A stretch of 64,000 bases of DNA from an uncultured Methanomicrobiales archaeon (GTDB lineage Archaea; Halobacteriota; Methanomicrobia; Methanomicrobiales; Methanospirillaceae), in assembly GCA_903828975.1 (NCBI GenBank), contig CAIKOD010000166.1:1-64000 (forward strand), in the 5' to 3' direction. Each line of letters starts with the position of its first letter. Position 1 is the stretch's first letter. A program made the translations under genes and the position numbers. A model generated the notes under the pieces. It ran no database searches and was not told the DNA's origin. It saw only the letters and a program-made list of their open reading frames with translations. This document shows positions 9,363-16,436 of this stretch, piece after piece.

Positions 9363-10587
9363 GAAGCGACCTCCTCATGCATTCCCCTTTTATAGAAGAA
9401 GAAAAGAGCAGACGCTGTTTCTCCGGGTCCTTTTCATTGCCAAGCACCCACATCATCTTAACGAGTGCTACTTCCGGCAACGTATCGGCGCCTTCAATTA
9501 CCCCGATTTTCAATAGGTCCCGCCCTGTGTCATACACGCGGTCACAGACACGCCCGTTCAGGCACTGGGAAGTCATCATAATGATGGTACCATCATCAAC
9601 CAGCGTTTTGAGGGCTGGTATCCAGTCCGTGCTCACGTGGCCAAGGCCGGTACCGGCAAGGACCAGCCCGTGTACCTCCCCGGTTTCCGGGAGTGCCGAT
9701 GGGGGCATTCCCGGGTAAAAGTACAGGAGCCTGCAGGACTCATCGAGGACCGGACTGATGGCCGGTTCACGGGACCCCCGTCTCACCGCTCCCGGTGAAA
9801 GGTGTATGTCCAGTGAAGGATAGTCCACGTAACCCAATGGCGCTATGCCAATACTCTGGAACGCATCGCGCCGCGATGTATGCATCTTCCTGACTCTCGT
9901 TGCCCGGTGGATTGCACAGCGGTCATCACTTGTCGAGGCATGCATTACAACTGCCACTTCCCCGAGGGGGCTGACTGCGGCAGTCGCACTGCATAATGCG
10001 TTCATGGTATTATCGCTGCTCGGCCGGTCGGCCGATCTCTGGGAGCCGACAAAGATAACCGGCACCGGGGTATCAACCATGAAGCTGACTGCGGCTGAAC
10101 TATAGGACATTGTATCGGTGCCATGGGTCACAATCACACCCGTGGCCCCGTTCTTAATTTCTTTATACACCGCTGCTGCCAGTTCCTGCCATATTGCAGG
10201 GGTCATATTTTCAGACAGGATCGTGTATAACTGCGTTGTCCGGTACCTGGCAATTCCTGAAAGGCCTGGTATTGCCCTCAGAATATCATCGGCGTCGAAC
10301 TGGCTTGTTACGGCTCCGGTACGATAATCGATCCTGCTTGCAATTGTCCCACCCGTTGAAATGATTGAAAGGGGTGGGAGAGAGTCATTCTGCGTCGTTG
10401 AAATTTCCGGTCGGCCGACCGGGTCCGGTCGTTCCATGAACCTGCAGGTATCGCTTCCTACACCGATGTTATACCCGCTGTCAAGCTTGATGACGGCTTT
10501 TCCCTCTCTGCTCGTAATATATGTCCCGTTAAACCGGGTGCCGGCATATGAACACTCAATCCGGTCACCGGTTTTCAGTCGTTCCAT
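9352..10587 (-). CDS. gatD: Glu-tRNA(Gln) amidotransferase subunit D
   Basis: Asparaginase-like ISTGGTIASRIDYRTGAV and VTHGTDTMSYSSAAVSFM. Confidence 0.97.
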   Translation of the reverse strand: MERLKTGDRIECSYAGTRFNGTYITSREGKAVIKLDSGYNIGVGSDTCRFMERPDPVGRPEISTTQNDSLPPLSIISTGGTIASRIDYRTGAVTSQFDADDILRAIPGLSGIARYRTTQLYTILSENMTPAIWQELAAAVYKEIKNGATGVIVTHGTDTMSYSSAAVSFMVDTPVPVIFVGSQRSADRPSSDNTMNALCSATAAVSPLGEVAVVMHASTSDDRCAIHRATRVRKMHTSRRDAFQSIGIAPLGYVDYPSLDIHLSPGAVRRGSREPAISPVLDESCRLLYFYPGMPPSALPETGEVHGLVLAGTGLGHVSTDWIPALKTLVDDGTIIMMTSQCLNGRVCDRVYDTGRDLLKIGVIEGADTLPEVALVKMMWVLGNEKDPEKQRLLFSSSIKGECMRRSLHGL

Positions 10588-12065
10588 TATTGGATAAGCC
10601 TCCCTGCGTCTGTCAGCATTGTTTCAATGGTGTGGCGGACGCCTTTTATTTTTGAATCGGTAATTTTCTGGTCCCTGTTCAGTTTCTCTCTTGCAAGGGC
10701 AATTGCTTCTGCAGTAGCGGAAGGTGCAGGTCCGCCGGGGTGGTCCCGCATGGCTACACTATCCTCGACTGATAACGCGGATATAACCTGTTTTTCTGTA
10801 AGGCCCCGTTCTGACAGGGTTTTTCCTGTTATCTCCACTGCCGCCACATCGAGAGTCTTTATTTCAAGTGTGCCGTTTCGTACTGCCCTGCCAACAATGC
10901 TGTGGGCTGTCCGGAATGGTATGTTATATTCCCTGACCAGGAGGTCTGCTACGTCTGTAGCAGTGGACATGCCTCTCCCGGCCTCGGTTTTCATACGGGC
11001 GATATCGAACCGGGCGCCCGATATCATGCCGGGCAACAGGTGCAGGCTCGTGGCAGCGTCCCTTGCCCCTCTCCAGAGGTGCGGGGTCAGCTCCTGGAGG
11101 TCCCGGTTATAACTCATGGGAAGGCCCTTGGTGATTACAAGAGCTGCTGTATATGCTCCTGCGACTGATCCTGCCTTTGCCCTCATTATTTCAGCGGTGT
11201 CCGGATTTTTCTTTTGCGGCATTATTGAACTGGTTGAACAGAACTGGTCATCGAGGCTGACAAAGCCGGTGAACGAAGAACTCCAGAGAACCAGCTCTTC
11301 ACAAAGCCTGCTCACGGTTGCCATCATAATTGAAAGGTCAGAGAGGACTTCCAGAGCAAAATCCCGGGTTGCAACTGCATCCATGGTATTCATGATGATC
11401 CCGTCAAATCCGAGCAGCCTGGCGGTATAGTCGCGATCTATCCGGTACCCCGATGATGCAAATGCAGCAGCACCAAGGGGGGACTGGTTGACCCGTGCAT
11501 ACGCCTCGTGCAACCGGTCAAAATCGCGTGAAAAAGCCTGTTCGTAGGCAAGGAGATGGTGGGCAAGAGTCGTTGGCTGGGCATGCTGGAAGTGGGTGAA
11601 CCCTGGCATAAATGAATCACGATGTTGTTGTGCGCATCCTAAAAGGACTTCCCGGAGTTTAACTAGTGAACCCATCTGTCCGAGTAGTTCATCCCTTAGG
11701 TGGAGCCGGATACAGGCCGCAACCTCATCATTTCTTGAGCGCCCGATATGGAGTCTTCCACCTGCCCCTTCACCTGCAGCAGCAATCAGCACTGATTCGA
11801 TACCCGCATGGATATCCTCAAAATGATCAGAAAAGGCTTCTTCAGGTACTCCGGTACCATGCATGCCGAGGAGCACCCGCATGATGGCAACGGCGTTGTC
11901 ATGATCAATCACGCCCTGCCTTTTCAGCATCAGGAGATGCGCTATATCCACGAGCAAATCTGCCTCTGCAATACTCCGGTCCGCATCCATTGAGGAAAGG
12001 AACTGTTTAATCCCCGGTACCCTTTCGCCCGACAGGCGGCCACGTCTGACTACATCTTCCTGCAT
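10587..12065 (-). CDS. argH: Argininosuccinate lyase
   Basis: HIGRSRNDEVA, GFTHFQHAQPTT, SSIMPQKKNPD motifs. Confidence 0.97.
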   Translation of the reverse strand: MQEDVVRRGRLSGERVPGIKQFLSSMDADRSIAEADLLVDIAHLLMLKRQGVIDHDNAVAIMRVLLGMHGTGVPEEAFSDHFEDIHAGIESVLIAAAGEGAGGRLHIGRSRNDEVAACIRLHLRDELLGQMGSLVKLREVLLGCAQQHRDSFMPGFTHFQHAQPTTLAHHLLAYEQAFSRDFDRLHEAYARVNQSPLGAAAFASSGYRIDRDYTARLLGFDGIIMNTMDAVATRDFALEVLSDLSIMMATVSRLCEELVLWSSSFTGFVSLDDQFCSTSSIMPQKKNPDTAEIMRAKAGSVAGAYTAALVITKGLPMSYNRDLQELTPHLWRGARDAATSLHLLPGMISGARFDIARMKTEAGRGMSTATDVADLLVREYNIPFRTAHSIVGRAVRNGTLEIKTLDVAAVEITGKTLSERGLTEKQVISALSVEDSVAMRDHPGGPAPSATAEAIALAREKLNRDQKITDSKIKGVRHTIETMLTDAGRLIQ

Positions 12066-12108: not shown

Positions 12109-12642
12109 TTAAAGCCACGCTTTTTTAGAGGCAAGCTCGATCGCCCGCTGGACCGATTCCTTTGGAATTATCGTTGCCACCGGGATATGGACGAGCTGTT
12201 CAATGACACTGCTGACGATGGGGGCGCAGACTATCGCAATTGCACCTTCCCGTTCAGCCCTGACTGCTGACACAATCGCATCTTCCATGGTATGCACAGG
12301 GTATTCACGTATATTGACACGGTGGCCTTCGACATCAGCGATCCGTTCTACTACAATATCGAGTACCGGGCGTGCCGCAATGAGACCGATAAATTCTTCC
12401 TCGCTATGCCGGTAATACCGCCGCAATGCACGGACAATCGCCCGCAATGTTGAAAGGTTCGGAGACCGTTTGCCATGAAGGATTTTATAGAGGGAACTTT
12501 GGGCAATGCCACTTTCAAGCGATAGCTCACGGATCGTAATTCTCAAATCCTTTCGGAGAATATCATTAAGAGCGACCACAAACTCTTCATCTGATAACAG
12601 GGCCGCCCGCATGAGCTTGTCTACAGGGTCCATCTGTACCAT
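12109..12642 (-). CDS. HTH (XRE-like) transcriptional regulator
   Basis: ITIRELSLESGIAQSSLYKILHGKRSPNLSTLRAIVRAL; divergent from ABC transporter operon. Confidence 0.85.
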   Translation of the reverse strand: MVQMDPVDKLMRAALLSDEEFVVALNDILRKDLRITIRELSLESGIAQSSLYKILHGKRSPNLSTLRAIVRALRRYYRHSEEEFIGLIAARPVLDIVVERIADVEGHRVNIREYPVHTMEDAIVSAVRAEREGAIAIVCAPIVSSVIEQLVHIPVATIIPKESVQRAIELASKKAWL

Positions 12643-12843: not shown

Positions 12844-14097
12844 ATGAAAAAGATTGCTTCCGCCATTGTTGTCTGCATCGCTCTTGCAATGATACTATTC
12901 GTAGCAGGATGTTTACAACCAACAACTCCCCCTACCCCGGTTACCCCCCAGGTAACCACCCCTGCCGTTGCAGGGACGACTGAAGTTGATGTAATGTATG
13001 CGGGGGGTGTCGGGCCGATGCCAGTCCTGCTATCGACAAACCAGATAGATGGCTATATCGCATGGCAACCGTACGTCTCCGTTGCCACTGAATCAGGTAT
13101 CGGGCAACTTGTCACCTATACTAAGGATTTCCCACCGGTGCCCGAATGGAACAATCACCCCTGTTGTGTGCTTACAGCAAGGAATGACCTGGTGGCCGGC
13201 AACCCTGACTTCGTAAATGCGATGGCCGCCCAGACAATCCTTGCTGACCAGTGGATAACCGATCATCCAGATATGGCTGCAGCCGACCTGTCAGAATGGC
13301 TGATTGGTAATGACACTATCAAATTCGGAAACCAGTCTGTACCCGCAATGAGCGTTATGAAGAGCGCGATCCCCTCGGTAAAATATACGACTGAACCTAC
13401 GCCTGAATGGATAAACGGGACGAAAAATTTCGTCAATGCCCAGATTAGTCTCGGGTATGTTACCGGGAGCCTGAAGAACACAAGTGCTGCAGATATGGAT
13501 GCAACCCTGTTTGACTTTGGTCCGTACCGTGCTTCGAAGAAAATGATCGCCGACAAGAAGATCGTTACTCCTGCAAAGGTAAACAAGCAGATTGGAATAG
13601 GTTACCTCAAGGGAGACATGCATGGCGGCGCGCTTATCATCGCGGTCAAGGAATGGAAATACTTCAATGAAACGTACGGCATCGCAATCAAGCCGAGAGA
13701 TCCGACTGCCTCGAAACCGGAGATATGTGACCTCATCGTCAACGGGGTCCCGGTTGCCGAACTGAAGCTGGTTTCAGCCGATGCCGGTCCGCAACTGATG
13801 CAGATGGAGGCAACCGATATTATCGGAATGGGCTACGCCGGTGTCCCCCCTGCAATCGGGTCAATTGACAAAGGTTCACCGGTTAAGATACTCATGCCAA
13901 TAAATACGGAAGGCTCAGGGCTTGTCGCAACGAAAGGGTCACCTGCCCTTGACTGGAACAGTTTCATCAAATATGCAGGAGAGCGCTCAGCAAGCGGGAA
14001 ACCGTTGAAAATTGCGGCACCTGCAAAAGGATCAATCCAGGATGTAATGCTGCAATACTCCCTGAAATACAGCGGTGTGACAATAAAATTTGTCTGA
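12844..14097 (+). CDS. ABC transporter substrate-binding lipoprotein (SsuA/NMT1-like) with apparently permuted domain order
   Basis: Lipobox FVAGC; QIDGYIAWQPYV and NHPCCVLTARNDLV precede GYLKGDMHGGALIIAVKEW, GYAGVPPAIGS, INTEGSGLV, KGSIQDVMLQYSL. Confidence 0.88.
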   Translation: MKKIASAIVVCIALAMILFVAGCLQPTTPPTPVTPQVTTPAVAGTTEVDVMYAGGVGPMPVLLSTNQIDGYIAWQPYVSVATESGIGQLVTYTKDFPPVPEWNNHPCCVLTARNDLVAGNPDFVNAMAAQTILADQWITDHPDMAAADLSEWLIGNDTIKFGNQSVPAMSVMKSAIPSVKYTTEPTPEWINGTKNFVNAQISLGYVTGSLKNTSAADMDATLFDFGPYRASKKMIADKKIVTPAKVNKQIGIGYLKGDMHGGALIIAVKEWKYFNETYGIAIKPRDPTASKPEICDLIVNGVPVAELKLVSADAGPQLMQMEATDIIGMGYAGVPPAIGSIDKGSPVKILMPINTEGSGLVATKGSPALDWNSFIKYAGERSASGKPLKIAAPAKGSIQDVMLQYSLKYSGVTIKFV

Positions 14098-14286: not shown

Positions 14287-15096
14287 ATGCAAATGCCCCC
14301 CGATAAACCACAATGGTGGCATGGGATCCTTTCAAAATCCCTCCTTTTAAAAATTGCACTCCCCATCATCATCATCATCAGCTGGGAAGTGCTCTCGATA
14401 CTCATCGATAACCCATTCATACTCCCTTCGATCGAATCGGTCCTGCTCGTGCTGTCCAAACCTTTTGCTGATATCCTTGGAAGCGGGAGTCTCATCGGTA
14501 ATGCAATGATCAGCCTTGGGAGAGTTTTAATCGGGTTTTTTGTTGCTGCGGTGCTCGCAATCCCCCTTGGTATAGGAATGGCCCGGAACGAAAAACTCCA
14601 TGATTTTTTTGATTCCACGGTACAGGTATTCCGGCCTATCCCCCCGCTTGCGTGGGTCCCGCTTGCCCTTGCATGGTTCAGGATTGGCCTTGTTTCAATG
14701 GTCTTTATCATTGCAATCGGTGCATTTTTCCCCATCCTCCTTAATACGCTCGACGGGATGAAAAGCATAAAAAAGACCTGGATCGAAGCCGCCCACACGC
14801 TCGGTGCGAAAGAACGGCAGATCCTGGCCAACGTCGTCCTCCCCGGAGCAGCACCAACTATATGGACCGGCCTCCGGGTCGGGTTCGGTATTGCATGGAT
14901 GTGTGTCGTTGCTGCCGAGATGATGCCCGGTACCAATTCAGGAATCGGGTATCTCATTATCACTTCCTACAACTGGGGGCAGGTGCAGGTAATCATTGCG
15001 GGTATTATCGTTATAGGGGTTATCGGGCTTGGAATTGATTATCTTTTCAAAGTCGTTGAGAAAAAGAAATTTATGTGGAGGGAGCTCGACCGATGA
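14287..15096 (+). CDS. ABC transporter permease (SsuC/TauC-like)
   Basis: PPLAWVPLALAWFRIG and EAAHTLGAKERQILANVVLPGAAPTIWTGLRVGFG (EAA loop). Confidence 0.95.
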   Translation: MQMPPDKPQWWHGILSKSLLLKIALPIIIIISWEVLSILIDNPFILPSIESVLLVLSKPFADILGSGSLIGNAMISLGRVLIGFFVAAVLAIPLGIGMARNEKLHDFFDSTVQVFRPIPPLAWVPLALAWFRIGLVSMVFIIAIGAFFPILLNTLDGMKSIKKTWIEAAHTLGAKERQILANVVLPGAAPTIWTGLRVGFGIAWMCVVAAEMMPGTNSGIGYLIITSYNWGQVQVIIAGIIVIGVIGLGIDYLFKVVEKKKFMWRELDR

Positions 15097-15848
15097 CACT
15101 CATTGTTGAAAATATCAGCAAAGAATTTGAACAGCGTGGTGTCCGATCAGCTGCACTCGTGTCTATTAATCTCGATGTAAAGGAGAAAGAGTTCACCTGC
15201 GTCCTTGGGCCGTCAGGGTGTGGGAAGACAACGCTGCTCCGTATCATAGCCGGTCTTGAGAAAGCAACTACCGGGAGGGTCATGATAGGCGGAGAGCTGG
15301 TCACCGGCCCTTCATCGCGTATGGCGATGATTTTCCAGGACTACTCGCTGTTTCCCTGGCGCACGGTCATTGACAATATCGCGTTTGGTCTCGAGATGAA
15401 GGGAGTCGGTGAAGAAGAACGTCTTGACGTGGCAGCCCATTATCTCGACCTTATCGGTCTGAATGGGTTTGGGGAGAATTTTCCCTACGAGCTCTCGGGT
15501 GGTATGCGCCAGCGCGTTGCCGTGGCACGGGCACTTGCAATTGACCCTTCTGTACTGCTGATGGACGAGCCGTTCGGTGCGCTCGATGCCCAGACCAGGA
15601 ACATGCTTCAGAAGCAATTACTTGAAATCTGGGACAAAACGAAAAAAACAGTCCTTTTCGTGACGCACAGCGTGGACGAGGCAGTATTTATGGCTGACCG
15701 AATTGTCGTGCTTACCAGCAGACCTGGAACGGTAAAAGAAGTCGTTACTATCGATCTTCCAAGACCCCGCGACCGGACAAGCCAGGACTTTGCGAAGGTC
15801 CGCCGTTATGTGCTTGGGCTAATCGATGAACAGCAGTCCACCCAGTAA
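15075..15848 (+). CDS. ABC transporter ATP-binding protein (SsuB/TauB-like)
   Basis: GPSGCGKTTLLR, LSGGMRQRVAVARAL, LLMDEPFGALD. Confidence 0.97.
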   Translation: MEGARPMTLIVENISKEFEQRGVRSAALVSINLDVKEKEFTCVLGPSGCGKTTLLRIIAGLEKATTGRVMIGGELVTGPSSRMAMIFQDYSLFPWRTVIDNIAFGLEMKGVGEEERLDVAAHYLDLIGLNGFGENFPYELSGGMRQRVAVARALAIDPSVLLMDEPFGALDAQTRNMLQKQLLEIWDKTKKTVLFVTHSVDEAVFMADRIVVLTSRPGTVKEVVTIDLPRPRDRTSQDFAKVRRYVLGLIDEQQSTQ

Positions 15849-15908: not shown

Positions 15909-16436
15909 ATGGTAAGAAAACCGGGAAAGATGTATAGGAATATTTCAAAGAAGGCATATACCCGCCGAAAATACATGGGCGGTGTGCCGGGAAGTAAAAT
16001 TGTCCAGTTCGAAATGGGAAATCTTTCATCTGATTTCCCACTCGAGGCCCACCTTGTTGTAACCGAAAGCTGCCAGATCAGGCATACAGCACTTGAAGCG
16101 GCCCGTATCGCAATAAACAGGCGCCTGATGAAAGAACTCGGAAGAATGAACTTCCACTTTAAAATCCGTGTATACCCACACCACGTGCTCCGCGAAAACA
16201 AGCAGGCAACAGGTGCAGGTGCAGACAGGGTATCAGAAGGTATGAGGCTTTCCTTTGGAAAACCCGTAGGGACTGCTGCGCGCGTAGAATCGAAGCAGAA
16301 AGTGTTCACGGTGTATACGACCCCCCAGTACTTGGAAAAGGTGAAGGATGCACTCCGGCACGGAGGTCACAAGCTCCCGTCTCCTTCGTATATCATCATC
16401 GACCAGAAACTGGTCATTAATGAATCATCAGAATAG
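15909..16436 (+). CDS. rpl10e: 50S ribosomal protein L10e (uL16 family)
   Basis: [38 protein letters not shown]. Confidence 0.96.

Follow-up and report, generated by a model that had tools for sequence, protein, structure and literature searches.

A probable circular permutation in an NMT1/SsuA-type substrate-binding lipoprotein of Halobacteriota, with canonical versions at the same locus

Introduction

Hardly any natural circular permutation of an ABC binding protein has been documented. In the open-licence literature on circular permutation and substrate-, solute- or periplasmic binding proteins, a single natural case was found, that of T. pallidum Tp0684 (MglB-2) and its relatives, and most of the other reports concern engineered sensors or constructs. 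MglB-2 is a naturally permuted glucose-binding lipoprotein for which the class 'Type Ic / Cluster Bc' has been proposed; its permuted part consists of a few N-lobe strands, and a fourth hinge crossing is needed (PMC4990184). A search of the open-licence literature on NMT1 and circular permutation returned nothing relevant and no report for the type II family.

The present analysis concerns a stretch of 64,000 nucleotides from an uncultured Methanomicrobiales archaeon (hereafter the window), which encodes a lipoprotein designated P0001. The motifs GYL, GVPP, EGSG, KGSIQD, DGYIAWQP and HPCC are common to P0001 and the NMT1/SsuA/TauA/NrtA-type type II substrate-binding proteins (SBPs; PF13379, TIGR01728).

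Gene layout and block order

The features of the locus are listed in Table 1. Read directly from the sequence, P0001 begins with a lipobox, AGC(23), and a Pro/Thr linker, followed by VDVMYAGGVGPMPVLL...DGYIAWQPY (from residue 47, base 12982) and NHPCCVL. C-terminal helices and a linker of about 20 aa come next, and only then IGIGYL (residue 250, base 13591), GYAGVPPAIGS, INTEGSGL and KGSIQDVMLQYSLKYSGVTIKFV, directly before the stop codon. This agrees with the open reading frame, coordinates and motif order of a first-pass annotation made from the window alone, and the breakpoint proposed there, with VTIKFV at the end of the protein and EVDVMYA at the start of the first block, holds in the alignment with canonical proteins. 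Anchor and operon partners are those of an NMT1/SsuA-type SBP: the lipobox is invariant in 30 relatives, and the permease and ATPase genes already named in that annotation lie downstream, with BPD_transp_1 and ABC_tran domains, respectively.

Table 1. Features of the SBP gene and its neighbours, in window positions
Feature	Position	Strand	Basis
P0001, substrate-binding lipoprotein of 417 aa, NMT1/SsuA-type (type II, cluster F), probably circularly permuted	12844..14097	+	ORF, Pfam, rotation test
Signal peptide with lipobox (AGC), up to Cys23	12844..12912	+	sequence; G22 and C23 invariant in 30 relatives
Pro/Thr-rich tether, residues 24-46; length varies among relatives	12913..12981	+	sequence, alignment of relatives
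C-lobe block, residues 47-228, canonical C-terminal portion: VDVMYA...IAWQPY...NHPCCVL...C-terminal helices	12982..13527	+	
Junction linker, residues 229-249, old C-terminus to old N-terminus	13528..13590	+	alignment with canonical proteins; dN/dS 0.05-0.26
N-lobe block, residues 250-417, canonical N-terminal portion, IGIGYL to KGSIQD..VTIKFV	13591..14094	+	
Insert of about 25 aa, residues 281-305, in N-lobe block	13684..13758	+	alignment
ABC permease (BPD_transp_1); family tree tracks SBP type	14287..15096	+	
ABC ATPase (ABC_tran)	15075..15848	+	
HTH (XRE-type) regulator, divergent, PrpR_N-like C-terminal half	12109..12642	-	
argH (presumed), conserved left flank	10587..12065	-	blastp of window ORFs
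Ribosomal protein L10e (presumed), conserved right flank	15909..16436	+	blastp of window ORFs

The names argH and L10e are presumptive, as they come from family recognition by eye on the blastp matches. The insert of about 25 aa is found in the permuted proteins of Methanomicrobiales and is absent from both the Archaeoglobaceae-type permuted proteins (see below) and the canonical proteins. Within the Methanomicrobiales clade, it has the pattern VNG.PVAE.

Evidence for circular permutation

P0001 scores 79 bits against the Pfam profile NMT1_2 (PF13379), above the cut-off of 24.7, and the match is made of two out-of-order stretches, the first in the protein (residues 58-147) corresponding to profile positions 163-245. 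When residues 250-417 are placed before residues 47-249, the match becomes a single stretch covering profile positions 37-245, with a score of 88.8 bits. The blocks of P0001 thus do not stand in the canonical N-to-C order and are colinear with the family only after rotation. The score against TIGR01728 likewise increases on rotation, from 52.5 to 62.2 bits, which is below the curated cut-off of 163.5.

A profile was also built from 21 archaeal homologues with canonical order, and the mature protein was scored against it in rotations 5 residues apart. In its natural order P0001 reaches 80.8 bits; the score is highest, at 144.0 bits, when the cut lies immediately ahead of IGIGYL, and none of 20 shuffles exceeds 1.0 bits. 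The gain on rotation is far beyond chance. Permuted relatives gain in the same way, the Archaeoglobaceae-type L130 from 109 to 214 bits, L029 from 64 to 120, and L112, a member of the second subfamily described below, from 62 to 115. In three canonical controls, the peak falls at the natural termini or within 10 residues of them; these controls are also part of the scoring profile, which inflates their absolute scores, so that the position of the peak is the informative part.

Alignment indicates that the two blocks sum to exactly one SBP, with no stretch lost or present twice apart from a few residues around the break. A single rotation is enough to make P0001 colinear with canonical homologues, and the canonical controls show no such gain; the residues at the new termini are neighbours in the canonical chain, and a linker connects the old termini. 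In a comparison with the solved structure of TauA (6ssy), the Archaeoglobaceae-type profile matches in swapped order, profile positions 236-328 to chain residues 24-117 and positions 32-111 to residues 127-210, which places the break of this clade at about TauA 117-127. That region is inside lobe II of type II SBPs, and the number of hinge crossings should therefore remain two. AlphaFold, run on a shallow alignment of four close sequences (P0001 and three relatives), gave a pLDDT of 32.6 and a pTM of 0.23, too low for a reliable model.

The rotation tests and alignments bear out the circular permutation proposed in the first-pass annotation. Judging from its sequence, P0001 is very probably the SBP of an ABC importer with a circularly permuted type II, cluster F fold.

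Distribution of permuted SBPs

The first-pass annotation had suggested a search for the same block order in other Methanomicrobiales. Full-length, colinear permuted homologues with 40-90% identity are present across the genera of the order, single-contig genomes included (G006, G007, G049), and three congeners in separately named records have the same order at 82-90% identity. Two single-contig genomes with a permuted homologue are presumably those of Methanosphaerula palustris and Methanoregula boonei. Of 396 genomes drawn from the whole phylum, 52 gave a match at 1e-20 or better, and the order is the same in 49 of the 52. Some of these genomes also encode a second, more divergent permuted subfamily (about 30% identity) with its own permease and ATPase.

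A profile of distant permuted proteins uncovered a second large permuted clade (families f9, f15, f16, f26, f28, f30, f31 and f34), which, besides Archaeoglobaceae, takes in six or more other family groups of Halobacteriota. We take family f9 to be Archaeoglobaceae and genome G159 to be that of A. fulgidus. In the following, clade A denotes the Archaeoglobaceae-type and clade B the Methanomicrobiales permuted proteins. The permuted SBP is thus a conserved family of Methanomicrobiales, Archaeoglobaceae and other Halobacteriota families, and not a one-off.

The search for tandem-duplicated intermediates, likewise suggested in the first-pass annotation, was made and turned up none. At L212 (2950-3828, +; also L198, 543-1421), a canonical-order SBP-like ORF of 292 aa that lacks a signal peptide immediately precedes a permuted SBP, with 61 bp between them; it groups with L095/L106 on a very long branch and, by its sequence, is not a tandem-duplication intermediate. 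The source genome of the window also encodes two NMT1_2 SBPs in normal order with a single-stretch Pfam match (G000:C4:16901-17581 and G000:C94:4161-4793). At L122 (G202:C58, family f10), a Methanomicrobiales-type permuted SBP adjoins an ATPase of the canonical-cassette clade, with no regulator-like gene; transfer or a binning error is possible in this case. Among plasmid sequences, P0001 found no match; a clade A protein matched bacterial plasmid SBPs, and the two inspected are canonical.

Operon, selection and putative substrate

The SBP-permease-ATPase operon and its flanks are conserved in most of the loci examined. Between congeners, the dN/dS of the mature protein is 0.038-0.061, with similar values for both blocks, whereas the tether and, in most pairs, the junction linker are less constrained than the blocks. 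The P0001 gene is thus under strong purifying selection. Together with the intact lipobox and the conserved operon, this supports the first-pass view that the gene is probably functional.

The permease and ATPase of the window are nearest to taurine, nitrate, sulfonate and Sao types and score below every specific cut-off. Against SaoX (NF040735), P0001 scores 28.6 bits, or 31.0 bits when rotated, with a curated cut-off of 300; since the TIGR01728 score, too, falls short of the curated cut-off whether or not P0001 is rotated, no substrate class is transferable from that family. As a family-level guess, the substrate may be a small anion of the sulfonate, taurine or nitrate type. In Methanosarcina, sulfonate transporters are reported to be upregulated when coenzyme M homeostasis is disturbed (PMC12713407), a finding that does not bear on the P0001 gene; coenzyme M or another sulfonate as the substrate of P0001 would be only a lead.

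The PrpR_N-like half of the divergent regulator has conserved CAPIVS and AERDGA motifs. An XRE-type regulator is divergent from NMT1-type ABC cassettes, with permuted or canonical SBPs, across many Halobacteriota, and no specific NCBIfam family covers it. When the regulator-SBP intergenic regions were searched for a shared operator motif, enriched sequences such as ATACAATTG and TTGGACAA were barely above shuffles in this AT-rich DNA, and no claim is made for them.

Two topologies at one locus

In Methanomicrobiales, the order of the locus is argH, (mostly) a divergent HTH regulator, SBP, permease, ATPase and L10e. The same argH/L10e locus and operon order occur with a canonical SBP at L097, L098, L099, L107 and L108. 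Two of these, L107 and L108, carry the divergent regulator, which shares as much as 94% identity with the regulator of a permuted locus. Within one genus, canonical L108 and permuted L139 are 94% identical in the regulator and 64% in the ATPase, and only 37% in the permease; within one family, the corresponding values for canonical L109 and permuted L219 are 89, 77 and 38%.

Trees give the same picture. In the regulator tree, the SBP types are mixed, whereas in the permease tree they are apart: permuted A, permuted B and canonical rows separate, with A and B each at 100/99. Permuted and canonical SBPs therefore alternate at one locus with a nearly identical regulator, and the permease matches the SBP type; this is a new observation. 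As the SBP and its permease switch in concert while the regulator is kept, synteny argues that both topologies would serve the same kind of uptake.

Alternative explanations and number of origins

The source genome is a draft of 186 contigs, in which an assembly or binning error might have placed two canonical gene fragments in the wrong order. This explanation was rejected, and its probability is negligible: independent genomes, comprising the three congeners at 82-90% identity and dozens of others, single-contig ones included, have the same order, and both blocks are under purifying selection. A decaying or non-functional relic is hardly credible either, given a dN/dS of about 0.04-0.06, an intact lipobox and a conserved operon and locus; a look for points in favour of a relic found none. 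Fusion of blocks from two different SBP genes, in place of permutation of one protein, deserves slightly more weight, as such fusions can occur and the authors of the MglB-2 study weighed a similar idea (PMC4990184). A tree of the N-block alone and one of the C-block alone, however, yield the same three groups (permuted A, permuted B and canonical), with support for A and B of 100/96 to 100/100, and the two blocks make exactly one SBP, so that a chimera is very improbable. Permutation of a single protein is the preferred reading.

Whether this permutation occurred once or twice is a closer question. Like the other trees, that of the rotated SBPs (58 rows, 313 columns) is based on a distant alignment; it supports clade A and clade B at 100/100 each, and canonical rows lie between them at 90/83 and 78/85. 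This separation by canonical rows, seen in the permease tree as well, and the presence of the insert in clade B only point to permutation having taken place twice at the same loop, independently in the Methanomicrobiales and the Archaeoglobaceae-type lineages. A single permuted clade is, however, compatible with the AU tests (p = 0.27 for the SBP as a whole, 0.29 for the N-block, 0.55 for the C-block and 0.40 for the permease). The two clades also share the loop that holds the break, which follows the KGSIQD / GTVQDF helix and precedes the next strand, and their junction linkers look similar: some members of both clades have P-x-K-V-x-K ahead of the GYL strand (TPAKVNK, VPEKVNK), though this motif is short. 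Two origins are thus a serious possibility, to which we give somewhat less than an even chance. More tentatively still, the same-loop permutation may have occurred more than once in archaea, with permuted and canonical SBP-permease pairs acting as interchangeable modules at one fixed, co-regulated locus.

Proposed mechanism

In the permutation itself, the old C-terminus would have been joined to the old N-terminus through the linker of about 20 aa, and the chain would have acquired new termini in the loop that leads from the KGSIQD helix to the following beta-strand. The permuted SBP is predicted to keep its two-lobed folding, to hold the ligand between the lobes and to deliver it to the cognate permease for transport. 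In both permuted clades, the lipobox or an N-terminal membrane segment is intact; the lipid anchor would now enter the lobe that contains the former C-terminal strand, and no longer the former N-terminus. The permuted arrangement is probably ancient and vertically maintained, and the SBP-permease pair is probably swapped as one unit for its canonical counterpart, with the same regulator in place. The two versions of the SBP would probably share the same or a closely related uptake task.

Comparison with known systems

A permuted SBP here spans families of a whole archaeal phylum, alongside canonical versions at the same locus. Such matched pairs of permuted and canonical proteins allow the effects of permutation to be asked for folding, hinge motion, the anchor-bearing lobe and permease docking. 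Profile-based annotation hides rearrangements of this kind, as permuted proteins are still recognised as ordinary SBPs.

The canonical SBPs at the same locus (L097, L098, L099, L107 and L108) differ from P0001 in being unpermuted and in their partner permease, which belongs to a different clade and shares about 33-37% identity with that of the window. Compared with NMT1/SsuA/TauA/NrtA-type SBPs in general, the sequence blocks and operon partners of P0001 are the same, and the block order is permuted. Like P0001, MglB-2 represents a natural, lineage-conserved circular permutation of a membrane-tethered ABC substrate-binding lipoprotein. P0001 is not of the MglB-2 type (type I, cluster B), as Pfam gives only NMT1_2 at E values up to 1; MglB-2 is bacterial with a sugar-binding fold of that type, whereas P0001 is archaeal, is assigned by its sequence to type II, cluster F, and has a different break site.
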